This document shows, one piece after another, positions 1 through 14,350 of a stretch of 64,000 nucleotides of DNA. This DNA comes from Roseimaritima ulvae. Lineage in GTDB: Bacteria > Planctomycetota > Planctomycetia > Pirellulales > Pirellulaceae. The stretch lies in contig NZ_CP042914.1 of NCBI RefSeq assembly GCF_008065135.1, forward strand, positions 1,860,001 to 1,924,000. The letters are read 5' to 3'. Under the pieces are notes generated by a model, which saw nothing but the letters and a program-made list of their open reading frames with translations, searched no databases and was not told the DNA's origin. The stretch's first letter is position 1; the number at the start of each line of letters is the position of its first letter. The translations under genes and the position numbers were made by a program.

Positions 1-1665
1 GACGCTCTCGTAGAAGTTGCAGAGCCCCTTGCCCAAAGTCATCATCCACGGAGCTAGTGAGCTTGTGGGCGATGACAGGATTTTGAAGGCCTTGCTCGCC
101 GAAGTTTCCGACCACATACCTTCGACTTCAAAAAGCTTGCTAGTTAGAGCAACGGAGTGAGAAACAACTTGGCCCTTCGCAGTCAATAGCGAGCTGATGA
201 CGTCATCGCTCATGTGCTCGCCGCACAAGTCGCGGATTTCCTCATGCCGGCTCTTGTGCCATAGATTTTCGAAAAACCTTCGACAGATCTCGGGGAAGAG
301 GTAGTCTGCCGCAGACCGTCCGCCCCTGAAAACAAACTCATATAGTGACTGGTCCTCGAAGATCGCCTTCTTCTTAGTTAGTGCATCCGCGGGGGAGTAC
401 TGCATCAGAAAAGTCTGCGCTAGTCGCTCCATGTCTATTCGCCTGTCACCATACTCTCGTCTGTTTTCGGTAGCATTCTTGTCCCACTGCCCGCGTTTTA
501 TCTCGTAGAACCAGGGGGGGGACTGACGGTTCATTCTCGCGGCAATGTCCTGATGAATTGGATCGTTCGTTCTCAGGTCTCGGGCGGACACAGGCGACTG
601 AGTGTTTGTGTTCTCCGAAATAAGTCGGGCTTGGTCTTTGCCTTCAGGTCCAGACGGTGGAACAATCACTCGGACCAAAACAGATACGTCATCGCTGAAA
701 CGTCCGAGTTGATACTCAAATGAGCTTACTGTTTGGCAACCATTAACGATTTGCGGGTTCTCGGCGGCGAGAAGCAACGAATCATCCGTTCTTCTGACCA
801 CTTCGCATCGGTCTGCCAGAATTGTTATCCCGTTGTTGTAGAACCAGAAGAAAGGCGAAGCCTCTTCGTCAGTGAGAGTCTTGTGGATTCTGTCGACTCG
901 CTTCGTCCGTCGACTCAATGCATATCGCACGTTGAGACTGAAAATTCTGCTGCCATACTTTCTCAATTGCCGCCCAAGGCTAACTGCAAGCATGTTTGAA
1001 ACAAATGCTTGCCAACCATGCGGTAGTCCGTCGTGCCCTTCTAGCGCCATTAACTCATTGTTGGCCAGTTCGAACTCAACCGTCTGCCCTTGAAGTGTCT
1101 GGGCATCTGGATTCCGGTCGCGGTCGAGCGTATGAAGGCTGTTTGCATCATAGATGCTAATTGAGAACACATTGCCGTGCTCTTCATTCAGTGCCTTCAA
1201 ACGGGACTTGATTGCTTCGATAGACTTATTGGGAAGCTGCGTCGGGATCCCAAGATTCAAGGAAACGTCATATCGACGACTTATCGCATTTCTCAGTTCA
1301 TTCGCTACAGACGAGAACTTTGCTCCAGCTTTCTCGGCTTGTGCAGGGTCCAAGAGAACTCGCAATGCTTCAATCAGTTCGATGCCGCACTTCTTGTCGA
1401 ACTTTTTATTGGGATCATCCGTCCATTTGCACTGCCATATATGAAACGTGAGTTCGTCGTCTTCTAGATAGAACCCATCAAGTCCACCATCACCGCCACC
1501 AGACACCACTAGGGTATCCGTGGCAGCAATAGCTTGATCATCATCGATTTCATGCACGAAGGAAAGTAGCCAAGCAGCGAATGCCCGTGGCTTAGAGATC
1601 CCTCGTTCCTCGCTTAAGGATTCGACGTTGCTAAGCAACCAGTCATGTATTTCCTTTGTGTTCAT
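1..1665 (-). CDS. AIPR-family phage-resistance protein (3' end outside window)
   Basis: I translated this frame by hand. It opens with ATG at 1665 and stays open for 555 codons to the window edge, so the C-terminus is missing. Near residue 270 it has WFYNNGITILADR and near residue 305 NPQIVNGCQT, followed by SENTNTQSPVSARDLR. This NNGIT/IVNGxQT pairing is the hallmark of the AIPR family (abortive infection phage resistance, PF10592). Its biochemical activity is not settled, and members recur in defence islands. The start lies 20 bp after the dptH stop, so it is probably co-transcribed with dptFGH. Whether it works with that complex or is an independent defence gene on the same transcript cannot be told from sequence. 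No signal peptide or membrane segment is seen in the visible part. Family call good; role inferred. Confidence 0.8.
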   Translation of the reverse strand, partial: MNTKEIHDWLLSNVESLSEERGISKPRAFAAWLLSFVHEIDDDQAIAATDTLVVSGGGDGGLDGFYLEDDELTFHIWQCKWTDDPNKKFDKKCGIELIEALRVLLDPAQAEKAGAKFSSVANELRNAISRRYDVSLNLGIPTQLPNKSIEAIKSRLKALNEEHGNVFSISIYDANSLHTLDRDRNPDAQTLQGQTVEFELANNELMALEGHDGLPHGWQAFVSNMLAVSLGRQLRKYGSRIFSLNVRYALSRRTKRVDRIHKTLTDEEASPFFWFYNNGITILADRCEVVRRTDDSLLLAAENPQIVNGCQTVSSFEYQLGRFSDDVSVLVRVIVPPSGPEGKDQARLISENTNTQSPVSARDLRTNDPIHQDIAARMNRQSPPWFYEIKRGQWDKNATENRREYGDRRIDMERLAQTFLMQYSPADALTKKKAIFEDQSLYEFVFRGGRSAADYLFPEICRRFFENLWHKSRHEEIRDLCGEHMSDDVISSLLTAKGQVVSHSVALTSKLFEVEGMWSETSASKAFKILSSPTSSLAPWMMTLGKGLCNFYESV

Positions 1666-1685
1666 CTCTTGGAACCTTTTGGTGT

Positions 1686-4600
1686 CTAGAGCTGCCAGAA
1701 GGCAAGGTCTTGTATCTTGAGAATATGTTTCTGTCCGTCGACATAGATCGACCGATGCTTGTCAAGTGCTTGAATGCTGCTGAGCAGAGACTCGACGTCG
1801 TCTTTCCCGGCGGTGTTAAACAGGGTTTTGATTTCTTGTGGCTTGATGCTTGGGACTCGGTGAATGATCCAGCTCAGGATGTAGCTGGAGTAGTCGTTGT
1901 TCGTGGTTTTGAAGTGGGTGAGTTCTTGCGTTGACAATATCGTCCCCACTCCAAACTCGCGGCCCTCTTTGAGCAGCATCCGGAGCCCTGGGAACTCTTG
2001 TTTCATAAAGTTGTCGGCCTCGTCGACGAGCACGAACTTGGTCAGCTGCCGGTGCGGATCTTGGATCTTGGAACTGCCCTTCTGGTGCATCTGGGCGTAG
2101 AACAGATCAAGCGCCAGAGCAACGACCAAATTTTGGATCTTGGGGTCGTAGCCGGACAGGTTGATGACAGTGACTCCGCTGACTAGATCGTAGAGTGACG
2201 TCGCTTTCGTTCGATCTGGTTCAAAGATCTCAAAGTTGGCTAACTCTGAGAGTGCCGCGTAAAGCGAGTCCTCTTCTACCTTTTCCTGCGCGTTAAACGC
2301 TGTCCAGACATCGTGCAAAGTTGGTGCAGGCTTGGACCACGTCGAGGGATCGTTTTTAATGATCCCAGCCGCTTCGTAAGCTTCGATCACTAATGAAGTG
2401 ATCTTGTTCTCTTGCTTGTTCCCCAGATTGAATGCCTTCGAAATTGTCGCCCTGAACTGACTTGCCGTATGCATGGGGAGCATAGGTTTGTTGCCGAACA
2501 ACGCAAACGGGTTGAACGGCAACCGGTGCAGCGGAAGTACTTTCGCGCCGGTAGCCTCGACGAAGTCCTCTTTGATGTAGTCCGCCTTGTAATCAAGAAT
2601 AAGAATGCCAATCGGCAGCCCGTCAACATTGTTCGCCTGATTCCTAATCAATTGCGTCACGAGGCTTTTCGTGAACTGAGTCTTACCGGTGCCCATCGTG
2701 CCAATGATTGCGGTATTTGGATTTAACACCTTCGCAGTATTGGTCGGCTCCCAGAAGACTCTCTCCTTGGTTTTTACATCCATTCCGAATTCGACCTTCA
2801 GTGTTTCGTTTGGGGGCGACGGATGAGCCGAGTCTTGAACAACCGGAGGACTCAGGGACGCAATTGTCACCTGGTGCTCAATGCCAGCCACTTCCGGCTG
2901 GAGTTCGATCCCGTCGTCATCAGACGGCGGTCCATCATCTGTTTCCGGCGGTTGCGTACCGTCGCCCCCACCGCCAAGAAAATATTTTGTGGGGACACCG
3001 GGGAAATTTTCTGCCAGCAACCGTTCTTCTAGCTGGAACCTTGGCGTTCTCAAGAACGTCTCGAGAAAACTCACCGGTATCTTCAGGGTTGCAACACCCT
3101 CTGATTCCGAAGCTGTGGTTTCAAAGCAGGTTTCGCTATCGAGATGGCCAATGACAAATGCGGCGGGGTAGTTGTTCAGCTCAGCAACATGGAAGTCGCC
3201 TCGCATCCATTTCTCTCGATTGTCGCGCAGTTCAGAGAAGTACTCAGGGGGGAAGACTTCGTAGAGCTCGTACTTCTCTAGCTGCATGAAAACCTGGCGT
3301 ACTAGAAGGCTTCTGTAGATCTTGCCTTCAAGAGTGGATGGACCGAATAGGCAGTCCACCAAGTACTCTCGAAGATTCTTCGCCTGCTCATGGGCTTTCT
3401 TGAAGTCACCCGATCCTGTTTTCACCTCAAGCGGAAGAAAGAAAATGCTGTCGTCTTTGAAGCCAACAAATAGCACATCATCAGAAATGCGGCCGGTATT
3501 TGTCTTGTCTTTGTGGTAGCGAGAGAAATCTCCGTCGCTCATCCGCAGCCCGATATTACCCGATACGCGGATCATCTCAGCAACGGAAAGTGGTACCCAA
3601 GTGATGCCGGATTGGGAAACGAGTGCGCTTAGTAGCTTCCATGCACCGATGATCCCTTCTCGTTCACGACGGATGCTCTCATTGGCAGTGACCATCTTGA
3701 GCAGCCACTCGCCGTTAAAGGCATTGAATTCGCCAACTGCTTCATCGGATCCATAGCTGAGAACTTCACGGTACAGGTCGGTTTGCCGGGTTACGGTGAT
3801 GGCATCGTAGCCGGCTGAGCTGGTGTATTGATCCGAAAAATGGATAAGCACCACTTCCTTGGTCTTCTCAAAAAATTTAAGCGTGACTTTCGGATCAATT
3901 ATCGTCACCCAAAGTGAGCTGTCGTAAGAACGCTCAAGAAGTTCACGAAATTTGTCGCTGACTGCTAGCCGAATGGCAGAGCTGCTGTTGTAGGTTTCTG
4001 TCGTAGCAACGAGCGGCTGCTGCAATGTTCCAACTAGCCTAGCTAATTCCAAATGCGGAAGCTCACCGGTATCGACGTTCTGCAACCCAAATCCAGTGTA
4101 GTAGTTCTGGTTCTCCGCGCACGACGCTTCGCCGCTCAGAAGACCATCGCAAGCAACCCCAGAGATATGATTATCAACATCAATGTTGGCTCGCTCGACT
4201 TTTTGGTTGTTACGGAACAACGTCAAGTGAGCATATGCTTGCTCTGACGATTCCTCGATTTGGAATTTGCTAAATGTCAATCTCGACCTCAAAAGATCGA
4301 TGATCGCGTCAGCATTCTCTTTAGCTTTACCTTTGTCTAGTTTGTAGCTCTGCTTAATCTTGCTGTAAGTTCCGATTTCAGCGAAACGATCAAACTCGGT
4401 CTCGGTGATCTCGTCATCATAGAGATTAATGTGGATTTTCTCGGACTCTTTGCCGGCGTCACGGAAGTAATTCAGTATCCCCAGGAAGACTTCCCGATTG
4501 TCAGCATTGTTGATCGAGTTGATCAGCAACGGTGCATCAGTGCCGTCCTTGAATAGCTCATCGAAGGTCTGTACAAACTCTTCGATCTTTTCTTTGGTTA

Positions 4601-6788
4601 GACGTTCGACGTAGTCGTAGCTGCTTTCTTCTTGAGGCACGATCTCAAGCCAGAATGCATTCTCATCGACTGCTTGCGTGTAACAATATTCGTGCTCGGC
4701 CGAATAAATGTACGGCAATAGGCCGCGAGCGTTGAGTCGCTTCCGTGTAACACTAGGGACGCTCTTAAAGGATCTTTCCTCCCCATCTCGCGTAATTTCA
4801 ATCGCCAAATACCGGAAGTACGACAGTACCAGCGGATGAAAGGGCGTGAGGAACTGGCGGCCATCAAAAGTGGCTGTGCCAAGCTTCATCACGTGCCGGA
4901 CCGTATCGTCAAGGCTCTTTCCATACTCAATCTCGCGAAGAAACGTTTGATAGGCCGCGATGTATGCGCCTGCCACGTCAATCATGTTCGGTCCCCAAGA
5001 TGCCAGACTGGGGATTGTTGATCTTTCTGAGAGATAGCTCTGTAGATCCTGCCAAGCGTCATAAATCGCTGGAGCGGTGTTTCTGATCTTAGCCAGAGGC
5101 AGTGAATTACCTTCGCTAGAGAAGCTAAGTAGCTTGTCATCCACGAAGACTTGCTCTACTTCGAGCATCTTCTGTCGAATTGCAACGACGTTCGACTCTT
5201 TGTTGTCTAGTACAACGCGATTTCTGTCGCGGAGAAAAACTCCGTTGTACTGATCGTCGAATAGCCGATTGAACCTCCCCTCATCCAAGAGCAACGGCAG
5301 ACTTAACGACTGGTCGCTGGCTTCGCCTTCAACGTTAAAACGAAGCGTGCTTCCGCTGCTCTCAAGAAGGAACTCTACGATGTCAGATTCTTCGTAGAGT
5401 TTCTCATATTCGACCGCACCGTATTGATCGACGGAAATTGTTTGGCCACTTTCATTCAAGAGCCACCGTTTAGAAATATTGTCGTTGATCAGTAGTTCAC
5501 GCTCATCAGTCTGAAGCTGGATCAGTCGCTGCTCAGGATCTGCGTGCGTCTTAACAAGAAACGTGTTTGCGAATGCTCCAGTGCAGAACAGGCCTTTCTT
5601 AACTACCAGAATGTTGAATTCAAATCTTTCGGTGGTCTGGCTTCGATCTAGACGAATGCGGAATATTTCTGCGACCGCTGGCGTTGGCATTGACATCGCG
5701 AGTCGCCGCCGATTCTTGCTTTTCTTGATCTCGATGCCTGCGGTGCTTTCAATCTCTTGATTGTGCTCCAGTTTCACATCCGACTTTTCAAGGTCGTCGC
5801 CAATAAACTCAATGGTCAGATCGACATTCTCGACCTCTTCGGGAACTGACAAGATAATGCTCTTGCGGCGACGACCGGCAGCAGTCTCGGACTTGTTGCG
5901 CGGGCCAATGATTTCGCAAGATTCAGAGAGCAAACTCAGATATTCAAGTCTGTGACTCTGCTGTTCGGCGATCTCGTCTTTGATCGCTTGCAGATCAAGA
6001 TCTCGCCATGGAGCCTGAGCAGATTCGCCGAAGTGCTTCTTCTCAAATGACTCACTAATTCCGAGTCTTTCCGCGATTTCATCAGGAAAGTGATGGGTTA
6101 CTCGGTCGAACTCTTCATGCAAGCGGCGATTGTCGTCTAGGCGACGTCGGATCTGCTTTGACTTATCCATTTCTGGTAAGCCTTTGTCGTTGAACAGTCC
6201 GAGCGGTCGTAGGTCGAGGCAATCATCGTTCTCTATCGAATCGAAGATCTTCCGGAAGCCGAATGCGCTCCCACCTTCTTCTGCAATGATTTCCGATTGC
6301 CAGTCAAGGATACACTCGTAGACCTTTTTGGGCCTATCGATCGCATCAGCCAGCCTCAACAGCTCACTGCTGACATGCTTTGTGGACCAGGGACCTCCTC
6401 GGCTAGAGAGATCTATCGCGCTGTTCACCAGCGTATCCAGCAAGCTATTGTGGATTATCAGCAAGCTCGTATTGCCAAACTCGTCAGATTGCTCCGCGAC
6501 GCGATCACGAAGCATTGAAATGTAATTCTCGTTAAACGCATTCGGGGATTCAGGGTTATCTGAATGTGCGACGCACAAGAGCCGAACGTCCCCAATTTCG
6601 AGGCATGGTATCGCCGTGCTGTTAACTTCAACTACGGCGGTCGCCGCACTACGGAGCTCTCCGATCAGGCTTTCCGTGTTGCTGCTGTCCGACGATCGGA
6701 ACTGGTAGCGTTTTCCGGCAACGACTCGCGTGTCCAACCAGGATACAAGAAGCTCCTTTAGAAACGCGTCAAATTGTGTTTCGGACAT
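1686..6788 (-). CDS. dptH: DptH/DndH, large HerA-like ATPase of the phosphorothioation-dependent restriction complex
   Basis: About 1,700 residues, the usual size for DptH (DndH), the largest subunit of DptFGH, which attacks DNA lacking phosphorothioate marks. The C-terminal 370 residues form a HerA/FtsK-type ATPase: Walker A IIGTMGTGKTQFTK near residue 1363 and Walker B FVLVDEADNF near 1588. An acidic, proline-rich linker (about residues 1270-1295) separates it from a long N-terminal part. Within that part, near residue 1120, DDVLFVGF followed by FFLPLEVKTG looks like a PD-(D/E)xK nuclease core; this is my inference. I chose ATG 6788 (MSETQF) because GGAG sits 9 nt upstream. GTG 6803 and ATG 6797 are alternatives. 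The start overlaps the dptG end by 20 bp, implying translational coupling. The AIPR gene follows 20 bp downstream. Confidence 0.87.
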   Translation of the reverse strand: MSETQFDAFLKELLVSWLDTRVVAGKRYQFRSSDSSNTESLIGELRSAATAVVEVNSTAIPCLEIGDVRLLCVAHSDNPESPNAFNENYISMLRDRVAEQSDEFGNTSLLIIHNSLLDTLVNSAIDLSSRGGPWSTKHVSSELLRLADAIDRPKKVYECILDWQSEIIAEEGGSAFGFRKIFDSIENDDCLDLRPLGLFNDKGLPEMDKSKQIRRRLDDNRRLHEEFDRVTHHFPDEIAERLGISESFEKKHFGESAQAPWRDLDLQAIKDEIAEQQSHRLEYLSLLSESCEIIGPRNKSETAAGRRRKSIILSVPEEVENVDLTIEFIGDDLEKSDVKLEHNQEIESTAGIEIKKSKNRRRLAMSMPTPAVAEIFRIRLDRSQTTERFEFNILVVKKGLFCTGAFANTFLVKTHADPEQRLIQLQTDERELLINDNISKRWLLNESGQTISVDQYGAVEYEKLYEESDIVEFLLESSGSTLRFNVEGEASDQSLSLPLLLDEGRFNRLFDDQYNGVFLRDRNRVVLDNKESNVVAIRQKMLEVEQVFVDDKLLSFSSEGNSLPLAKIRNTAPAIYDAWQDLQSYLSERSTIPSLASWGPNMIDVAGAYIAAYQTFLREIEYGKSLDDTVRHVMKLGTATFDGRQFLTPFHPLVLSYFRYLAIEITRDGEERSFKSVPSVTRKRLNARGLLPYIYSAEHEYCYTQAVDENAFWLEIVPQEESSYDYVERLTKEKIEEFVQTFDELFKDGTDAPLLINSINNADNREVFLGILNYFRDAGKESEKIHINLYDDEITETEFDRFAEIGTYSKIKQSYKLDKGKAKENADAIIDLLRSRLTFSKFQIEESSEQAYAHLTLFRNNQKVERANIDVDNHISGVACDGLLSGEASCAENQNYYTGFGLQNVDTGELPHLELARLVGTLQQPLVATTETYNSSSAIRLAVSDKFRELLERSYDSSLWVTIIDPKVTLKFFEKTKEVVLIHFSDQYTSSAGYDAITVTRQTDLYREVLSYGSDEAVGEFNAFNGEWLLKMVTANESIRREREGIIGAWKLLSALVSQSGITWVPLSVAEMIRVSGNIGLRMSDGDFSRYHKDKTNTGRISDDVLFVGFKDDSIFFLPLEVKTGSGDFKKAHEQAKNLREYLVDCLFGPSTLEGKIYRSLLVRQVFMQLEKYELYEVFPPEYFSELRDNREKWMRGDFHVAELNNYPAAFVIGHLDSETCFETTASESEGVATLKIPVSFLETFLRTPRFQLEERLLAENFPGVPTKYFLGGGGDGTQPPETDDGPPSDDDGIELQPEVAGIEHQVTIASLSPPVVQDSAHPSPPNETLKVEFGMDVKTKERVFWEPTNTAKVLNPNTAIIGTMGTGKTQFTKSLVTQLIRNQANNVDGLPIGILILDYKADYIKEDFVEATGAKVLPLHRLPFNPFALFGNKPMLPMHTASQFRATISKAFNLGNKQENKITSLVIEAYEAAGIIKNDPSTWSKPAPTLHDVWTAFNAQEKVEEDSLYAALSELANFEIFEPDRTKATSLYDLVSGVTVINLSGYDPKIQNLVVALALDLFYAQMHQKGSSKIQDPHRQLTKFVLVDEADNFMKQEFPGLRMLLKEGREFGVGTILSTQELTHFKTTNNDYSSYILSWIIHRVPSIKPQEIKTLFNTAGKDDVESLLSSIQALDKHRSIYVDGQKHILKIQDLAFWQL

Positions 6789-8100
6789 ATACCGCATCTC
6801 CACTATCGCTCATGCGGTCGACATTCCCGACGCGCTCGTAAAAACTGATCAAAGCTTGCTGTGATCCCTTGTCGAAGTAGAAGCCCCTCTCCTTAAATGC
6901 TTTCAGCAGTTCTTGAAATCGAACCGACGGCCGATCACCAATGGCAAGATTGGTTAGCAGCAGGACGAAGTCTTGGTTGATGACCAAAACGCGACCCGCT
7001 CTCCCACGAGACTGGAGAAAGTTCCTTGCGACCTCCTTGTCAAATACCTCCATGTATTGTTGCTGAACACGGTGTCGCCCCTCATTCACCGTCTTCGCAA
7101 ATTGCTTGACTCCCAAGCTCATCAAATGCTTCATCGCCTCGATTGCATCGATGGGTGCCGCAGGTACGGAAGGCAGTTTGCGATCCAACCGAAATTCTTC
7201 CGAGAATTCGACCAGGGATTTATGTACACGAGCCCTATTCGAGTCGTCTGAGTCGTGCACTGCCTTTGCGTAGGACCACAACGGCGCTTTCGGATAATCA
7301 GTGTCAGAGTTGAAATACTCCAGCATGCTGAGAATGGGAAAAACGTCTGCCATCGGGCCCGCAAGCGACCGATAACCATCCTTGGTAACGTGTACCCGCT
7401 CACTGCTTGCCTTTTCGGTGTCAAGTATGAAGTAAAGCGGCTTGCTCGATGGAGGGCTTCCACTGGTCCAGTTGCGGATATTCAGCCCAAGCTGAGAGCA
7501 GTAAACGAAATTGTATAATTCGATGCAACTCGGTAATTGCTCCAGAAAATACTCGGAGTGACCAGCTAGGAAGGCGACATCTCTCACAAAATTGTCGGCG
7601 ACAAATGGTAGATAGCACTCTTCAGCAGCCGCGATGTCTGCTTCACGCAGCTCATTCTTTAGCAGATCGAGAAAGCCCTTCTCTAGAAAGTTCGTCCCGC
7701 TTTCAAATTCGACCGAGGGCAGCGATTTATCGAAGAAGGACTTGAGCAGGTCAACTAAGTGTTTCGTTGATGCGTTTGTCTTGGAATGCGCTCGAAGGAG
7801 CATAAATTCTGGGGCTGTTCTCGATAACGCGTCTCCAGAGAAGTACATCTTGCGCAGATCTTCAACGACCGACGTGTCACTTAGCCTATCTTCGAGATAT
7901 TCGGAGCATTTTGCTTCGAAAGCATCCATCGAAAGATCTCTCTTGACCTGCTTTCCCATCAGCCAAGACAAGACCACGCAGGCGACCGATTCAAAATCGA
8001 ATTCCTTCGCGCCCTTCCGGTAAGGAAGGTATGCTGTCAGCTTGTTTGAGCCGATTTTTTCAGCGTCAACATTCGAGAGACGGTCTACCAAATGTTCCAT
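6769..8100 (-). CDS. dptG: DptG/DndG, phosphorothioation-dependent restriction protein
   Basis: 443 residues, the expected length for DptG. It lies exactly between dptF and dptH in the canonical F-G-H order, and the call rests mainly on size and context because DptG has no well-known catalytic motif. I see no P-loop, membrane segment or signal peptide, and composition is that of a soluble, mostly helical protein. The ATG at 8100 overlaps the dptF stop by one base (TAATG), a classic coupling arrangement, and the C-terminus runs 20 bp into dptH. In characterised systems F, G and H are all needed for restriction and for the toxicity seen when modification is lost. No frameshift or internal stop is seen, so the module looks intact. 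Confidence 0.8.
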   Translation of the reverse strand: MEHLVDRLSNVDAEKIGSNKLTAYLPYRKGAKEFDFESVACVVLSWLMGKQVKRDLSMDAFEAKCSEYLEDRLSDTSVVEDLRKMYFSGDALSRTAPEFMLLRAHSKTNASTKHLVDLLKSFFDKSLPSVEFESGTNFLEKGFLDLLKNELREADIAAAEECYLPFVADNFVRDVAFLAGHSEYFLEQLPSCIELYNFVYCSQLGLNIRNWTSGSPPSSKPLYFILDTEKASSERVHVTKDGYRSLAGPMADVFPILSMLEYFNSDTDYPKAPLWSYAKAVHDSDDSNRARVHKSLVEFSEEFRLDRKLPSVPAAPIDAIEAMKHLMSLGVKQFAKTVNEGRHRVQQQYMEVFDKEVARNFLQSRGRAGRVLVINQDFVLLLTNLAIGDRPSVRFQELLKAFKERGFYFDKGSQQALISFYERVGNVDRMSDSGDAVYVRNTI

Positions 8101-9686
8101 TATCGACGCTCCACAATGATTTCGTCTTCGACCTCATCATCGATGAGCTCCCACTCGACATCGCCCTTCTGAACGCTAAGGCACTGAGTCTGCTTGACGA
8201 TCCGCCGAACATCCTCAACCACCTCTTCGAGCTGCACTACCGTCGTCTTATCATGCGTGTTCGGTCGGTAGCCAGCATTAATCCTAAAAGCCAACTCCAG
8301 GAAGTTCACTGTTATCGGAACAGCTCTGATGTGATGTTCATGTCCAACCCTTAAACACGCTTCAAAAAACCTAAGCTGTGATGGAGCAATATTCTCAAGC
8401 TTGCTTAGATCCGGTTGCATCGTCGCGGTGGCAGAAAGTGCATAGCCATTTGGCTTTCCCAGGAGGAAGCGGTCCCGTCGTATCTCAGGCGCGAAGCGAT
8501 TTGCAAAACGGGTGACGGCAGAAACAAGTGTGTCTTTGTAGAACGACCTCAACGCGTTTTTTTGCGCTTTGTCACTTCCCTGGTAGTCTCGATGCAGCTG
8601 CCAAAATTCTCGGTACTTATCGAACAGATCCCGTTTCAGGTCTTCGCGAAATCGATGGTGATAATTGTTACTGAACTCGACTTCCTGCATGATGTAGAAC
8701 AAACGAACCCATGTCCTGGGCTCTTTTACCGTCAGGCCAAACTCCTTCTCTGCTGCTGTGCGAAACTCTTTGAAGTCTTCCTCGTACAATCCTAGAGATG
8801 CTTTTACCTGGAATAGGTCAAGCCGTTTCGATCTCGAGTGGCAAGGGTCGAGTTTATTAAGCGAATCGACCAACTCCGAGCCGTGTCCGCAAAAGAGATT
8901 GTCAAATAGTGTTCCTGGACCACTGAGTATTTGAAAGACAAAGTCAAGAATTGTGCGAGCGGTTAAGAACTGATCGAACTTGAGGTGAGCGTAGAACAGC
9001 AGTGCGCATATTCGATCTTGAACTTCTGGCACGCAAAGTAATTTGAAATTCTGGTGCAGCCTCGTGTTCGGGTCTGACTTCAAGAATTCGGCGTAGATTG
9101 GATTCGATTCTGATTCATCGCAGATCCTTCCAAGAAGTGGCCCGATGAATGGAGCCTCAATCTGCTTCCCGTTCAAAGCAAATTTTGGATAGGATTCAAA
9201 GTTGATGAAATCGAACTGCGATTCTGTTGAGGGGTGTCCCTTCAAAAAATTGGAGATAGCGTTCTTGATGTCGCCGTGTTCCTCCGCTCCGTCAGCTTCG
9301 TAGTTGCCGAGCATCCCAATGTTGATGCCAACAACCAGTGGACGTTCAGCGGCCTTGTACTCTCGGAATCGATCGTCCAAGGTCTGGATAGCGTTTTTAC
9401 CGGGATCGAAGCTATGGGTTGCGTCTAAGTGAAAATCAAAAGCAGAGGCGTACTTCTCGTGAATTCGCCGAAAAACCTCTGATTTTCCATCTCCACTAGA
9501 ACCGCATAGAAACAGGATCCTCTTCACGCTTGAATCGTCCAATGCTGTGGTCAGCGCCTTCTCAACAGGCGTGCGGACGTAGAGATACTTTTTCAGCTTT
9601 GCTGCTTCTTTACTCGCCGATCCAAGGGTCGTGACTGCCTGTGCAGATCCCTTGGAGAGCATCTCGATTGTTTGCACAAATGACAT
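8100..9686 (-). CDS. dptF: DptF/DndF, P-loop NTPase of the phosphorothioation-dependent restriction complex
   Basis: 528 residues from the chosen ATG. A Walker A loop, FLCGSSGDGKSEVFRRI, lies near residues 58-74, directly after a stretch on one side of which the family's KYLYVRTPVEKAL lead-in is found. Length, P-loop position and order ahead of dptG and dptH match DptF (DndF), thought to supply ATP hydrolysis for DNA restriction. The ATG at 9686 (MSFVQTIEM) is preferred because AGGAG precedes it by 8 nt. A longer frame starts with a weak TTG at 9728. It is the first gene of the minus-strand unit and faces the divergent methyltransferase gene. The 275-bp space between them holds an 8-bp tandem repeat and presumably both promoters. 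Confidence 0.85.
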   Translation of the reverse strand: MSFVQTIEMLSKGSAQAVTTLGSASKEAAKLKKYLYVRTPVEKALTTALDDSSVKRILFLCGSSGDGKSEVFRRIHEKYASAFDFHLDATHSFDPGKNAIQTLDDRFREYKAAERPLVVGINIGMLGNYEADGAEEHGDIKNAISNFLKGHPSTESQFDFINFESYPKFALNGKQIEAPFIGPLLGRICDESESNPIYAEFLKSDPNTRLHQNFKLLCVPEVQDRICALLFYAHLKFDQFLTARTILDFVFQILSGPGTLFDNLFCGHGSELVDSLNKLDPCHSRSKRLDLFQVKASLGLYEEDFKEFRTAAEKEFGLTVKEPRTWVRLFYIMQEVEFSNNYHHRFREDLKRDLFDKYREFWQLHRDYQGSDKAQKNALRSFYKDTLVSAVTRFANRFAPEIRRDRFLLGKPNGYALSATATMQPDLSKLENIAPSQLRFFEACLRVGHEHHIRAVPITVNFLELAFRINAGYRPNTHDKTTVVQLEEVVEDVRRIVKQTQCLSVQKGDVEWELIDDEVEDEIIVERR

Positions 9687-9761
9687 TGGTGATCTCCTGG
9701 TCCCTCGAATGACCAATTGGCAAAACACGTCGAAAGGCTATTATCATTAGCATACGAACTC

Positions 9762-9806
9762 CTGGAGTGCTGGAGTGCTGGAGTGCTGGAGTGCTGGAGT
9801 GCTGGA
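9762..9806. repeat. 8-bp tandem repeat (CTGGAGTG) in the divergent intergenic region
   Basis: Five perfect copies of CTGGAGTG run from 9762 to 9801, followed by a decayed sixth. They lie between the divergent starts of dptF (9686, minus) and the methyltransferase (9962, plus), so they are in or beside the promoter region of both units. Short perfect repeats like this change copy number by slipped replication. A length change here could alter promoter spacing, but that effect is inferred, not seen. The rest of the 9687-9961 gap shows no gene I would support. Confidence 0.85.
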
Positions 9807-9961
9807 ACGCCCCTCTCGAATCGTGATTTGCTCGCCATGATTGTTGCGTAGGGCGATTCGTGAAACAAGCAGGCTAGTTTGGAAAGCCAAGTCGTGCGTT
9901 TCGCCCCAGGAATTTCGAGCTCGCGACATGGTGCCGGCGTACTGTTTTTTCTTCGGGTGTA

Positions 9962-12037
9962 ATGGAATTCGGCATCAAACGTCATCGAGCGGCGATTCGC
10001 CGGCGCGAATATTCGTTGCCCGTGAAGTGCTTGCTCCGCGATAACCTGCTCAATGAGGATCGCCCGTTATTTGACTATGGGTGCGGGCACGGCGATGATC
10101 TGTTTGGATTGTGTGCGGAAGGCTTTGTTTGTAGCGGATTCGATCCCGCGTTTAGACCTGATTCGCCAAAGTCTCCTGCGGCGGTGGTAAACCTTGGCTT
10201 CGTCCTGAACGTGATCGAGGATCCGGACGAACGAAATGCGACACTGAAAGAAGCGTGGAGTCTCGCACACCAGGTTCTCTGCGTGGCTGCGAGGATCATG
10301 GTCAGCGATGACGGCGGCGCGGAGGTCACATACGGCGACGGTGTCGTGACTCGCATTGGCACCTTTCAGAAATTCTTTACCCAAGCTGAGCTACGCGAGT
10401 ACATCGAGTCGACTCTGGGGGAAGAATGCTTTCCTGCCGCTCCCGGTGTCTACTACGTATTCCGAGATGCCGATCTCAAAACCACCTATATAGCTGGTAA
10501 GTATCGGCGTAGGCTTGCGGCTCCTCGCAAGCGAATTGCTGAGATCCGCTACGAGGAACATCAGGAGCTTCTCGATTCGCTGATAGATTCGATCACGAAA
10601 TTTGGGCGGCTTCCCGAGCCAGATGAGTTTTCGTCTGCAGAGGAGGTGATCGATGCATTTGGGTCGCTGAAGCGCGCGTTTGCATTGATCCGACGCGTCA
10701 CCGACGAAGAAGATTGGGCTGCGGTTCGGCAACATCGGAGCGAGGATCTCCTTGTCTACCTTGCTTTAGCCAATTTCGGTAAACGTCCGAAGCTGTCTCA
10801 ATTGCCGAGTAAAGTGCAGCGAGATATTCGAGCCTTTTTTGGGAGCTATAAACGTGCTTGCAGCGAAGCGGATAGCTTGATGTTTCGCGCGGGGGATCCT
10901 GATGAGATCGATGCTGCCTGCATCCGCTCCAAGATTGGACGTTTGTGTCCAAGCTCGCTTTGGATCCATGACGGCGTTCGAGATCAACTCGAGCCACTCC
11001 TGCGAATCTACGAGGGTTGCGCTCGCGCTTACATCGGAACTATTGAAGATGCGAACCTGATCAAGCTACATCGGTTCTCTGGGAAAGTTTCCTACCTCGC
11101 CTGCCCAGATTTTGAGTCGGATCCGCATCCGATTACAACTGAAACAACCAAGGTATGGTTGCGGACGTTGCGTGTAGGGTTTTATGAAACTGCTGACAGG
11201 ATCAATCCTCCCCTACTGGATCGAAAAGAACGGATGCTTGACTCGGATGATGACCGTCGTAGCAAGTTCGAGCGTTTAAGCAGTCAGGAGGTAACACATG
11301 GGCTTCTGCACGACGAAGATGATTTCTTGACTCGTGCCGTATGGAAAGCCAATCTTCAGACCCTCGGATTCGAACACCGAGGCCACCGTCTGGTCCGACG
11401 AAAGACCAATAGCCCGCCTAGCGTTGTTCTCCCGAAACGTTGTTCGAAGTACAGGGTCGGCAAGCGAATTGGCGGAGCGGTTTACGTTCATCGTGATTTT
11501 GAACACGTGCTCGGCGAGCCAATGGCAGCAGCTAAGAGCCGGCTGCCAGCGGGATTTGAATACACGGTGGTCAAGCACAATGAGACAAACGGCAATTTCA
11601 GTTTCATCCATTGTCCCGACTTCGATGAGTCTCCCGAGCCGTCGACCGGCAGCTACGCTGTAGTCAAATCGGATGGCGTTGTGAAAATTCGTCCAGCTCT
11701 ATCCGATCCATTCATTTACCATCACAAATGGCTGTTTGTTGACGATGACTATCGGGGATTCGATGTCGAAGAAAGCAAGCGACGTTCGGTCGAATGGATG
11801 ACTCTGCCCAACGTCGATAAATCTCGGATTGGTCGAGCAAGCTATTGGAATACTCACGTGGTGCCGCAGCTCGAGCGGAATCCGCGTCAGAGCTGGCTTC
11901 GCAGTGAGGAAGTCCGCAAACGCCTTGGATGGACAACTTGCGAGCTTGCTCACCAAAGAGATGCGGGACACATTCGATTCAAGAAAGTTGGCAATGCGTT
12001 CCTTTACCAGCTCGACCATGAGAATGCTGCGGAATGA
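9962..12037 (+). CDS. DNA phosphorothioation-associated putative methyltransferase
   Basis: 691 residues. The N-terminus carries a Rossmann SAM-binding signature: DYGCGHGDD at about residues 38-46 (motif I), then GFDP and LGFVLNVIED further on. The order and the long, partly charged region that follows match the family annotated as DNA phosphorothioation-associated putative methyltransferase (TIGR04096), which occurs only near dnd/dpt genes. The last 200 or so residues (from about 490) look like an additional domain that I do not recognise. The target (DNA, RNA or protein) is unknown. It is divergent from dptF, and its stop overlaps the ATG of the phosphoesterase gene (ATGA). No strong ribosome-binding site precedes the ATG, so the start is less certain. 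Confidence 0.8.
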   Translation: MEFGIKRHRAAIRRREYSLPVKCLLRDNLLNEDRPLFDYGCGHGDDLFGLCAEGFVCSGFDPAFRPDSPKSPAAVVNLGFVLNVIEDPDERNATLKEAWSLAHQVLCVAARIMVSDDGGAEVTYGDGVVTRIGTFQKFFTQAELREYIESTLGEECFPAAPGVYYVFRDADLKTTYIAGKYRRRLAAPRKRIAEIRYEEHQELLDSLIDSITKFGRLPEPDEFSSAEEVIDAFGSLKRAFALIRRVTDEEDWAAVRQHRSEDLLVYLALANFGKRPKLSQLPSKVQRDIRAFFGSYKRACSEADSLMFRAGDPDEIDAACIRSKIGRLCPSSLWIHDGVRDQLEPLLRIYEGCARAYIGTIEDANLIKLHRFSGKVSYLACPDFESDPHPITTETTKVWLRTLRVGFYETADRINPPLLDRKERMLDSDDDRRSKFERLSSQEVTHGLLHDEDDFLTRAVWKANLQTLGFEHRGHRLVRRKTNSPPSVVLPKRCSKYRVGKRIGGAVYVHRDFEHVLGEPMAAAKSRLPAGFEYTVVKHNETNGNFSFIHCPDFDESPEPSTGSYAVVKSDGVVKIRPALSDPFIYHHKWLFVDDDYRGFDVEESKRRSVEWMTLPNVDKSRIGRASYWNTHVVPQLERNPRQSWLRSEEVRKRLGWTTCELAHQRDAGHIRFKKVGNAFLYQLDHENAAE

Positions 12038-12693
12038 AAATCTGGTTTATTTCTGATACTCACAACGAGCACCTTGGATTGCGGGTGCCGGAAGTGGACT
12101 TGGTGATTCACTGTGGCGACGAGTCGACGCATGGCAATGCTTGGATGAATGAACCGGAAGCGAGACAGTTTTTTGAATGGTATTCGTCGCTGGATATCTC
12201 TACCAAGGTGTTTGTTCCAGGTAATCATTCTACGGCCGTCGAGCAGGGGCTGATCGTCGCCGAAGACTATCCCGGGGTTCAGTTCCTGGTCCATGAGGCG
12301 ATGCAGTGGAATGGGCTGAAGATTTTCGGCTCGCCGTACACGCCACGGTTTCATGATTGGGCTTACATGAAAAAACGAGCCAAGCTGGATCTCGTTTGGC
12401 AATCGGTTCCGGATGACGTGGACATTCTAGTCACACACGGGCCGCCGAAGGGTGTGCTGGATCTGACACGCGACATCGAGTCACATGCGATTGTTCAAGT
12501 TGGCTGTGCGGCCCTGCGCCGGCATGTCGACCAAAGGATCTATCCTCGAATCCATGCTTTTGGGCACCTGCATGACGAGAAAGGCATCAGCAACTTCGGC
12601 TTGTTTACCCGTGGCTCGACGCAGTTTATCAATTGCGCGTGCTGCAATCTCGCTGGCAAGCTCAAGAACAATGGGTTTGTTGTTGAGGTTTAA
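12034..12693 (+). CDS. MPPED-like metallophosphoesterase
   Basis: 219 residues with a full calcineurin-like metal site: SDTH (D8, H10), HCGDES (D29), PGNHST (N64, H65), VTHGPP and FGHLH. The blocks IFGSPYTPRFHDWAY and FINCACCN resemble the animal MPPED1/MPPED2 family and its bacterial relatives, which are phosphodiesterases with poorly known substrates. MPPED2 has Gly in place of one metal ligand in the last block, whereas here FGHLH keeps it, so the enzyme should be fully competent. The ATG overlaps the methyltransferase stop by 4 bp, so the two are one transcription unit inside the restriction island. A role in processing nucleotides or nicked DNA there is inference only. It converges with the sigma-kinase gene 75 bp away. 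Confidence 0.82.
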   Translation: MKIWFISDTHNEHLGLRVPEVDLVIHCGDESTHGNAWMNEPEARQFFEWYSSLDISTKVFVPGNHSTAVEQGLIVAEDYPGVQFLVHEAMQWNGLKIFGSPYTPRFHDWAYMKKRAKLDLVWQSVPDDVDILVTHGPPKGVLDLTRDIESHAIVQVGCAALRRHVDQRIYPRIHAFGHLHDEKGISNFGLFTRGSTQFINCACCNLAGKLKNNGFVVEV

Positions 12694-12768: not shown

Positions 12769-14208
12769 TTAGTCCGCTAGTCGCTGAAGCGTGTCTTGTA
12801 TTGTTGCGGACCTATCGGCCGGGGAGGACTCCAAGGATGTTTGCATGATCGTTTGCAGGTTTGCGCCGGCTTGCGAACCGATAACCATAACGTCTTGGAC
12901 ATGGCGGCTTTCGACGGTTTCCATTAGCGTTGCGGCGATGCCTTCGCGTTGGTTGGGCGGCTGGCCGCGCAAGTACCAGTGGATCAGGCCGCCGATGGCG
13001 TAGATGTCGGTCTTGACGCTGATCTTGCCGAAGGCGGGATCGATTTGCTCGGGGGCGGCGAAGCCGAGGGTACCGCCGAGGATCGGTGAAGTCCGCCCCA
13101 GCGAGGCTTGCGAAAAACCGAAGTCAGTGATCGTGACTTTGTCTTGATCGTCGATCAGCGTGTTGGCTGGCGTCAGGTCGCCGTGGATCAGCCCGGCTTG
13201 GTGCACCGACTGGATGGCTTCGCAGATTTGTCTTAGCCACTTGATAAAGCGTCGCTCGGCGGGCCGATCGATCGCGTGCATCGGGCGGCCGTCGATCCAC
13301 TCGCTGAGAACGTACGGGCCTCCATGCGGTGACTCGCCATAGCCGAGATAGCGAATGACGCCGGGATGATCGATGCGTGACGCTGCGTTGATTTCTCGCA
13401 GAAACGACGCGCGACCTTCTGCGTTTTGCCAGAACGCTTTTCGCAGAAATTTTACCGCGACCGTGCTACCGTCGGATTGCAGGCTGGCGCGATACACTTT
13501 GCCGAAACCGCCGCTGCCGATCAGTTTGCCAAGCACGAACTGGTTGTAGGTCACACGAGGCAAATGCGTAGCGGTTGCTGCGACGAGTCCCTGCGTGGCC
13601 GGATTGCCGGAGAGAGGATCTGGCGACTTTTCTGACGCGGGGGACAACCATTGGCGAACTCTGGCAAGTCGCCTCCGCACGGTTCGCTCATCGATTCCCA
13701 GCGATTCGGCCAGCTCACGCTGCGACTGGCCGGCAAGCAATCCTTCGACGACGGAGAACTGATCGGCCGGAAGCTCGGCCTGCAGGTGATGCAGGAATTC
13801 GTCCGCGTCGGAGTCGTCTGCCGCGAAACCTGGGAACCGGCCGCTAACGCTCGGCCGCTGATCGAAATCGTCGTTGAGCGGGAGGCGAGTTTGATTGCCA
13901 CCTCGCTTGGATGCCGAATGCCGCTCGATCGAGCGGGCAAGCTTGCGACGGGCGAAAGTCGCCAGCAACCGCCACAGCGAAACGTTCTGACTGACTTGGA
14001 TGCGACTATGCCGGGCAGCGTCGAAAAAGCTTCCCAGGGCCGATTGCATGACTTGTTCGGGATCGATTTGGGATCGATAGCGACGATTCAGCCGGCTGGC
14101 GACGAGAGCCACGAGCCGGAATGCGTAACGGTCAAAAAGAACTTCGGCCGCCCGCTCGTCTCCGTTTTTCCATTGGCGCAGCAGCCAGCTATCCGGCCGG
14201 TCCGTCAT
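12769..14208 (-). CDS. ECF-type sigma domain fused to a serine/threonine protein kinase
   Basis: 479 residues from ATG 14208 (MTDRPDSWLL); a longer frame begins with TTG at 14307 and is less likely. Residues 1-190 look like an ECF sigma factor: region 2 includes NGDERAAEVLFDRYAFRL, and region 4 has the helix-turn-helix QRELAESLGIDERTVRRRL. From about residue 220 follows a Hanks-type kinase: glycine loop GSGGFGKVY (near 229), VAVKF lysine (near 252), HGDLTPAN catalytic loop (near 342), TDFGFS (near 361) and a GFAAPEQ activation segment. HGD replaces the usual HRD, so it is a non-RD kinase. Sigma-kinase fusions are known mainly in planctomycetes. The likely role is transcription control coupled to phosphorylation; promoter targets are unknown. 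The gene converges with the phosphoesterase and diverges from the ferredoxin gene. Confidence 0.85.
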   Translation of the reverse strand: MTDRPDSWLLRQWKNGDERAAEVLFDRYAFRLVALVASRLNRRYRSQIDPEQVMQSALGSFFDAARHSRIQVSQNVSLWRLLATFARRKLARSIERHSASKRGGNQTRLPLNDDFDQRPSVSGRFPGFAADDSDADEFLHHLQAELPADQFSVVEGLLAGQSQRELAESLGIDERTVRRRLARVRQWLSPASEKSPDPLSGNPATQGLVAATATHLPRVTYNQFVLGKLIGSGGFGKVYRASLQSDGSTVAVKFLRKAFWQNAEGRASFLREINAASRIDHPGVIRYLGYGESPHGGPYVLSEWIDGRPMHAIDRPAERRFIKWLRQICEAIQSVHQAGLIHGDLTPANTLIDDQDKVTITDFGFSQASLGRTSPILGGTLGFAAPEQIDPAFGKISVKTDIYAIGGLIHWYLRGQPPNQREGIAATLMETVESRHVQDVMVIGSQAGANLQTIMQTSLESSPADRSATIQDTLQRLAD

Positions 14209-14350
14209 CGACTCGACTTTTTCAAATTCTTTTTCGTTGTCGGTGTCCGGTTTCAAACGCTGTTTCTCACTTCCTCGGTGACATCGGCATCCCGCCTGTG
14301 ATTGCAAAACTGACAGGCTGGAAGCCTATCCCACTTTAGGAGACACGAGA

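Follow-up and report, generated by a model that had tools for sequence, protein, structure and literature searches.

In a 64,000-nucleotide (nt) stretch of the genome of the planctomycete Roseimaritima ulvae, and directly to the left of it, we found a complete dndABCDE-dptFGH phosphorothioation restriction-modification (R-M) system, as judged by gene content, in which a gene of the AIPR family follows dptH. This stretch, called the window throughout, covers positions 1860001-1924000 of contig NZ_CP042914.1 (here C1), which makes up the single-contig genome of 8,212,515 bases. In systems of the Dnd family, host DNA receives its phosphorothioate (PT) mark from DndA, DndC, DndD and DndE, DndB has a regulatory role, and DNA that lacks the mark is attacked by DptFGH. 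From its position and predicted domains we consider it rather likely that the AIPR protein is an alternative to the Salmonella protein DndI, i.e. a second, PT-gated restriction arm of a complete and probably horizontally acquired Dnd locus. Judged by the genes predicted there in different genomes, the site between dptH and the dnd genes is one at which cassettes for alternative accessory proteins are exchanged, and several of these proteins are restriction nucleases by predicted domain.

Gene content of the dnd-dpt locus

The original prediction, made from the window alone, described a restriction half with no modification genes in view and proposed that these genes either lay left of position 1 or that the restriction half acted with another mark. 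When the contig was extended leftward, dndE, dndD, dndC, dndB and dndA were all found at C1:1852094-1858485, on the same contig and just left of position 1 (L002; Table 1). The apparent lack of modification genes was thus an effect of the window edge, which rules out a restriction half without its modification half and leaves action with another mark without a basis.

The prediction that dptF, dptG and dptH are intact and tightly coupled held: dptF and dptG share 1 nt, and dptG and dptH overlap by 35 nt when the longest start is taken. All eight dnd/dpt genes are adjacent, intact and above their curated NCBIfam cut-offs, with a slight margin in the case of dndA. The nuclease-like and Walker regions of DptH, E1126-V-K1128, GTMGTGKT (1368-1375) and VDEAD (1593-1597), are invariant in all four DptH proteins aligned. 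The AIPR gene begins 20 bp beyond dptH on the same strand, again as predicted (PF10592 match at 1.4e-38), and the two genes may be cotranscribed; dndA to dndE come after one further open reading frame (ORF) of 438 amino acids (aa). From left to right the order is dndE-dndD-dndC-dndB on the minus strand, dndA on the plus strand, the 438-aa ORF, the AIPR gene and dptH-dptG-dptF on the minus strand, and a methyltransferase-phosphoesterase pair on the plus strand. The genes dndBCDE are therefore codirectional with dptFGH, the AIPR gene and the ORF, and dndA, between the two groups, has the opposite orientation. As a system the locus is of a known kind: it has the full Dnd/Dpt gene set and differs in the placement of dndA, which sits on the opposite strand between the AIPR gene with the 438-aa ORF and dndB.

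Table 1. Features of the dnd-dpt locus of Roseimaritima ulvae, from left to right.
Feature	Position	Strand	Profile match or remark
dndE	C1:1852094-1852480	-	TIGR03184 124.8 bits, cut-off 71.85
dndD	C1:1852484-1854544	-	TIGR03185 597 bits, cut-off 246
dndC	C1:1854516-1856141	-	TIGR03183 630 bits, cut-off 290
dndB	C1:1856119-1857240	-	TIGR03233 526 bits, cut-off 328
dndA	C1:1857343-1858485	+	TIGR03235 482.9 bits, cut-off 480
438-aa ORF	C1:1858530-1859846	-	between AIPR gene and dndA, outside window
AIPR gene	window 1..1665; 3' end at C1:1859818; full ORF L004:5818-7665	-	PF10592; 615 aa, of which 555 aa in window
dptH (dndH)	window 1686-6803	-	TIGR03237 1265 bits, cut-off 621; PADLOC DndH 2284 bits
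dptG (dndG)	window 6769-8100	-	TIGR03236 284 bits, cut-off 20
dptF (dndF)	window 8100-9728	-	TIGR03238 492 bits, cut-off 50
PT-associated putative methyltransferase gene	window 9962-12037	+	TIGR04096 569 bits, cut-off 150
MPPED2-like metallophosphoesterase gene	window 12034-12693	+	PADLOC PDC-S10 5.5e-66; MPPED2 2.2e-28

Occupants of the site between dptH and the dnd genes

The site after dptH was surveyed with an alignment of four DptH proteins (A1) as query, from which L034 with its split dptG and dptH was excluded, against 84,980 species genomes. This yielded 202 relatives, of which the best 80 were analysed. Among these 80 loci dndC and dndD were each found in 68 and dndB in 63, some contigs ending early. 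Nine loci end too soon after dptH, so the site could be judged in 71. A same-strand ORF of at least 90 aa lay between dptH and the dnd genes in 64 of the 71, a count that takes in weak cases such as L075 (methyltransferase as sole ORF) and L091 (a 90-aa ORF), and the remaining 7 had none. A Pfam search of the 119 same-strand site ORFs of at least 100 aa from these 71 loci assigned 26 to DndB/DGQHR, 12 to GmrSD_N, 9 to Mrr_cat, 8 to GmrSD_C, 7 to AIPR, 6 each to HNH_2 and HARE-HTH and 4 to HATPase, besides smaller classes, and many were without a Pfam match. Most occupants that Pfam could name thus bear DndB/DGQHR or nuclease domains.

AIPR genes occupied the site in seven of the 71 judgeable loci (L041, L050, L062, L089, L106, L113 and L115), whose hosts are a Halomonas, two Vibrio, a Larsenimonas, a Xenorhabdus and metagenome-assembled genomes of Helicobacteraceae and Oceanospirillaceae. 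In five of the seven the AIPR gene starts 9-46 bases beyond the end of the dptH match, and in the two Vibrio loci an Mrr/HARE-HTH gene intervenes. The occupants were mapped on a FastTree phylogeny of 83 DptH proteins (2 of 85 were too short), 74 tips of which could be labelled by occupant and which carries a long-branch warning. The 9 AIPR tips among the 74 need 9 changes, the maximum possible, and seven occupant classes together need 41. The placement of the DptH encoded in the window is unsure because of long branches, its own among them. The exchange of occupants does not depend on this tree: L050 and L051 share 97% of DptH, L053 is about as close, and the three are followed by different occupants.

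Two of the other occupant classes are related to proteins known from Dnd systems. Occupants of the GmrSD class with about 600 aa can be identified as DndI, since their profile matches the solved Salmonella DndI structure 9JFL at 5e-233. In Salmonella enterica Cerro 87, dndI is described as cotranscribed with dndFGH and adjoins dndBCDE. Its product is a nickase that PT restrains, has an ATPase activity that PT stimulates, and needs no more than iscS-dndBCDE to be protective (PMC11662687). The commonest classified occupant (26 of the 119 site ORFs) corresponds to the DNA phosphorothioation-associated DGQHR protein 1. It shares the site with AIPR and differs in that AIPR has no DndB domain by Pfam, and in that DGQHR proteins usually belong to a two-gene unit whose partner gene varies in type. 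An unclassified cassette of two genes, coding for about 365 and 327 aa, was also recurrent after dptH (L060:15284-17378, L090:15299-17342 and others). Its first gene was found in 10 and its second in 7 of the 80 loci, with a weak GmrSD_N hint in the first (E 0.003), and the cassette is possibly a split or new DndI-like type.

Exchange at the site was also seen within a single species. A dptH match was present in 187 of 5426 Escherichia coli genomes, and seven dptH regions, picked down the identity ranking, were examined. The site holds an AgrB-like and a DGQHR gene in strain 55989, an AIPR gene in GMF065, a DUF262 gene with an ATP-dependent nuclease gene in XH992 and A37, and a hypothetical gene with a DGQHR gene in RM8082, NDM5 and 300444. 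Between GMF065 and the six other loci dptH is 96.2-99.2% identical over 100% of its length, and dndE with the included part of dndD is 96.9-99.8% identical over 95-97%. The site between dptH and dndE, on the other hand, gave no blastn alignment at E 1e-10 in any of the six comparisons. With near-identical dptH and dndE-dndD flanking an unalignable site, the exchange among these E. coli loci is a clean cassette replacement. The E. coli form of the AIPR gene was found in 5 of the 5426 genomes, and in the three examined it lies 36 bp after dptH. Matches to the DUF262 pair and the DGQHR pair, counted by sequence match and not by position, were found in 31 and 123 E. coli genomes, respectively (109 of the latter over most of the length). 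In GMF065 about 1 kb without an annotated feature lies between the AIPR gene and dndE (L190:8554-9578).

Earlier work has touched on this region. An E. coli survey noted that between one and three hypothetical proteins separate dptFGH from dnd (PMC4373003), and a large reappraisal of Dnd systems listed, for the vicinity of the modification genes, nucleases of the HKD, HNH, REase/HARE-HTH, URI, HEPN and PIN types (PMC10853773). AIPR, GmrSD and DGQHR do not occur in the main text of that reappraisal. No description of AIPR beside dptH was found in the passages covered of the open literature, while subscription papers and supplements, which were outside this scope, may hold one; nor did 'AIPR family protein' and 'DndFGH' occur together in the open literature among the matches listed.

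The AIPR protein and its proposed role

By its Pfam score (133.7 bits, cut-off 25, the sole Pfam domain) and a PADLOC AbiU match (3e-36) the protein from the window is a member of the AIPR/AbiU family, from which it is set apart by its coupling to a dnd operon. It scored far below the cut-off for MzaE, the AIPR protein of the MZA system (56 vs 1050 bits). The predicted architecture combines an Mrr-like nuclease N-terminus (about residues 28-101) with an AIPR core (residues 242-434); a separate Pfam search of residues 1-230 matched nothing. The seven other dptH-linked AIPRs are 20-26% identical to the window protein, and D59, G61, D63 and K80 are invariant in all eight.

A profile of 52 AIPR sequences (A5) was then compared with the other occupant classes. 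It includes 44 sequences from viral contigs, derived from 57 loci of which 56 had an ORF and 46 remained after removal of near-duplicates. Its match to the profile of the Mrr nucleases found at this site had a probability of 79% (E 1.5e-5) and lay at the N-terminus, where D59xGxD63...Q78CK80 of AIPR falls on GDxGID...QAK of Mrr. For the dptH-linked AIPRs this nuclease signature points to an N-terminus that is Mrr-like rather than HEPN. In the core, N245, R247, N278, G279, N308, G309, Q311, N354 and Q356 are invariant in all 52 sequences; N308-G309-x-Q311 is a putative sensor motif.

The resemblance to DndI lies in position and general plan. Like dndI, the AIPR gene stands directly after dptH on the same strand, with dptFGH to one side and the dnd modification genes to the other, and its product likewise combines a predicted nuclease with a putative sensor. 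The domains differ: DndI combines DUF262 with DUF1524 (GmrSD)/HNH, whereas AIPR combines Mrr-like and AIPR core regions with no detectable homology to it. PT sensing, too, has been demonstrated for DndI and is a proposal for AIPR.

In the mechanism we propose, the Dnd proteins of the locus would keep their usual division of labour (marking of host DNA by DndA, DndC, DndD and DndE, regulation by DndB, attack on unmarked DNA by DptFGH). The AIPR gene, fourth on the dptFGH strand, would take the position of Salmonella dndI. The Mrr-like N-terminus of its product would act as a nuclease that is restrained by the AIPR core, and the core would read either the PT mark or the status of the Dnd system. 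Unmarked DNA would then be cut by AIPR even with DptFGH blocked.

Several observations weigh against a PT-gated nuclease in this position. AIPR accounts for a minority of the occupied sites (7 of 71 loci), and among the other occupants there are several in which Pfam sees no nuclease. Within the profile D63 is kept in 43 of the 52 sequences and K80 in just 28, so many AIPR members elsewhere are without the signature. The AIPR profile was negative against the DndI class (probability 0.3%), and the core matched the DGQHR/DndB profile weakly (probability 5%, E 0.0077), with VNGCQT near LDGQHR; as a scale, the same test gave 16% for DGQHR against DndI, which are both grouped with ParB-like proteins (PMC11662687), and 1% for DGQHR against Mrr. 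An AlphaFold model from 8 sequences was poor (pLDDT 57) and a second one from 52 sequences was good (pLDDT 83.5). With a threshold of E 0.001, Foldseek searches of the two models found nothing in the PDB and thus confirmed neither a nuclease nor a sensor fold, and the AIPR profile had no match among the sequences of solved structures. Entries of nucleases such as Card1 and Can2, at Foldseek E 0.4 and 1, were set aside and not counted. Finally, the AIPR gene precedes an orphan ORF not seen in the 80 loci, and dndBCDE and dptFGH are codirectional here while they are convergent in most of the 80 loci (exceptions were seen in L063 and L068).

It is also conceivable, if rather unlikely in our judgement, that AIPR is an independent AbiU-type abortive-infection gene that came to lie at the end of the dptFGH operon through the clustering of defence genes and the tolerance of the site for inserted DNA, and that it uses the operon's promoter without any functional tie to phosphorothioate. 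AIPR is indeed frequent away from dnd systems: there were matches in 79 plasmid records and at the 57 viral loci, and the source genome has a second AIPR-family gene at C1:6620098-6620823. The family has been described as frequently linked with R-M systems (PMC3506569), and the site is shared by ATPase-type, trypsin-like and other genes. Chance insertion accords less well with the recurrence of AIPR at the site, on the dptH strand, in loci of several lineages, with the DndB/DGQHR or nuclease domains of most Pfam-named occupants, and with the fact that one occupant family, DndI, has been published as PT-sensing and cotranscribed with dndFGH (PMC11662687).

A role as a DGQHR-like regulator or specificity partner of DptFGH or DndB, and not as a nuclease, seems improbable. 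The N-terminal domain of DndB has been placed in the AbiU1/AIPR family (PMC3506569), and the weak alignment of the AIPR core to the DGQHR profile, with the two motifs near each other, would fit such a role. The low probability of that alignment speaks against it, however, as does the N-terminal Mrr signature shared by all eight dptH-linked AIPRs, which a pure regulator would not need.

The 438-aa ORF next to the AIPR gene had no significant family match. No homologues were found in 391 other planctomycete genomes, in plasmids or in the 80 dptH loci, and PDB rows appeared only at E 0.5. A HEPN reading of this ORF is not supported: RNNMIH at 399-404 fits R-x(4-6)-H, but such motifs arise in 1848 of 2000 shuffles, and there was no Pfam HEPN match. 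It is possible that the ORF is a partner of AIPR.

Accompanying genes, genomic setting and implications

On the other side of dptF, the predicted divergent pair of a methyltransferase and an MPPED-like phosphoesterase gene was recovered, the two genes overlapping by 4 nt. The methyltransferase is, by its profile match, an already named and known dnd-associated family (TIGR04096). The match spans residues 5-479 and is followed by a C-terminal extension, and we read D38-Y-G-C-G-x-G, a motif that at least 90% of the 17 members in an alignment share, as putatively S-adenosylmethionine-binding. The gene was detected by tblastn in 21 of the 80 dptH loci, in 18 of these beyond dndB on the dnd strand. 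TIGR04096 scored above cut-off in eight planctomycete genomes including the source genome, and in one other planctomycete locus (L006) the methyltransferase gene follows dndD-dndE. The C-terminal extension of the window's methyltransferase (residues 499-650, window 11456-11911) shows 33-36% identity with hypothetical proteins encoded by plasmids of Vibrio; in the one such plasmid region inspected no annotated dnd gene lay within 12 kb. In the intergenic region between dptF and the methyltransferase gene an 8-bp unit (GGAGTGCT) is tandemly repeated about five times (window 9764-9801). A 30-base pattern of this repeat had no exact match elsewhere in the 8.2 Mb genome, and its copy number could tune the promoter of dptF or of the methyltransferase gene.

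The phosphoesterase resembles MPPED2 of known structure over residues 5-210. It was found in none of the 80 dptH loci, and a family match at E 0.001 or better was present in 216 of 392 planctomycete genomes; by context it is not a conserved dpt component. The suggestion that AIPR and the phosphoesterase are unreported components of dpt systems thus stands for AIPR, in the form of a recurrent but alternative occupant, and is not supported for the phosphoesterase, which is probably a passenger. With G+C contents of 53.1% (methyltransferase) and 52.3% (phosphoesterase) both genes belong to the low-G+C island described below, and because of this and the gene overlap the phosphoesterase may act together with the methyltransferase at the present locus. 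That the pair forms a two-gene accessory module of dnd systems is very improbable. The overlap, the shared island and the link of the methyltransferase family to dnd loci, L006 included, would agree with such a module. Against it stand the absence of the phosphoesterase from the 80 dptH loci and the other seven TIGR04096 planctomycete genomes, in which no PDC-S10 match was listed on the same contig, weak matches being partly unlisted and many contigs short. A broken MPPED-like phosphoesterase remnant with in-frame stops was seen in one congener (L204:6719-6940), about 10 kb from a conserved kinase gene, in a 20-kb stretch that had no match to dnd genes.

Every gene from dndE to the phosphoesterase gene has a G+C content of 48-54%, while the 2-kb windows of the flanks mostly lie at 55-61% and the kinase gene on the right flank at 59.6%. 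Among 392 planctomycete genomes the source genome was the sole one with DptF. Based on this rarity and the low G+C content relative to the flanks, the locus, about 20.6 kb long, is most likely an island that was acquired horizontally. The kinase gene to its right (window 12769-14307) is conserved in two congeners at 58 and 64% (L204:17095-18666; L205:17422-18855). A clean empty site was not found in these two: besides the kinase, no ORF of at least 120 aa in their 20 kb matched the 104 kb around the locus. Other defence-like genes lie within 17 kb of the conserved kinase gene, namely PDC-M26A-, PDC-S37- and Hhe-like matches in L204 and a type IV-like restriction enzyme in L205. In this genus the kinase-flanked site may be a hotspot for defence genes.

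DndI is the only occupant of the site after dptH that has been characterised in the literature covered, and the exchange site is the useful part of the present finding. As a tentative generalisation, somewhat less probable than the role proposed for AIPR itself, the gap between dptH and the dnd genes might be a general exchange site for PT-gated second effectors, with DndI as one occupant and AIPR as a second, unrelated one. At this one place PT sensing would then have become linked to different nucleases on several occasions, even among E. coli strains whose dptH genes are almost the same. If AIPR reads phosphorothioate, Dnd systems would carry a replaceable second restriction arm, and such an arm could explain the efficacy of Dnd when phages block DptFGH. 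AIPR, an old abortive-infection family, would thereby gain a trigger.

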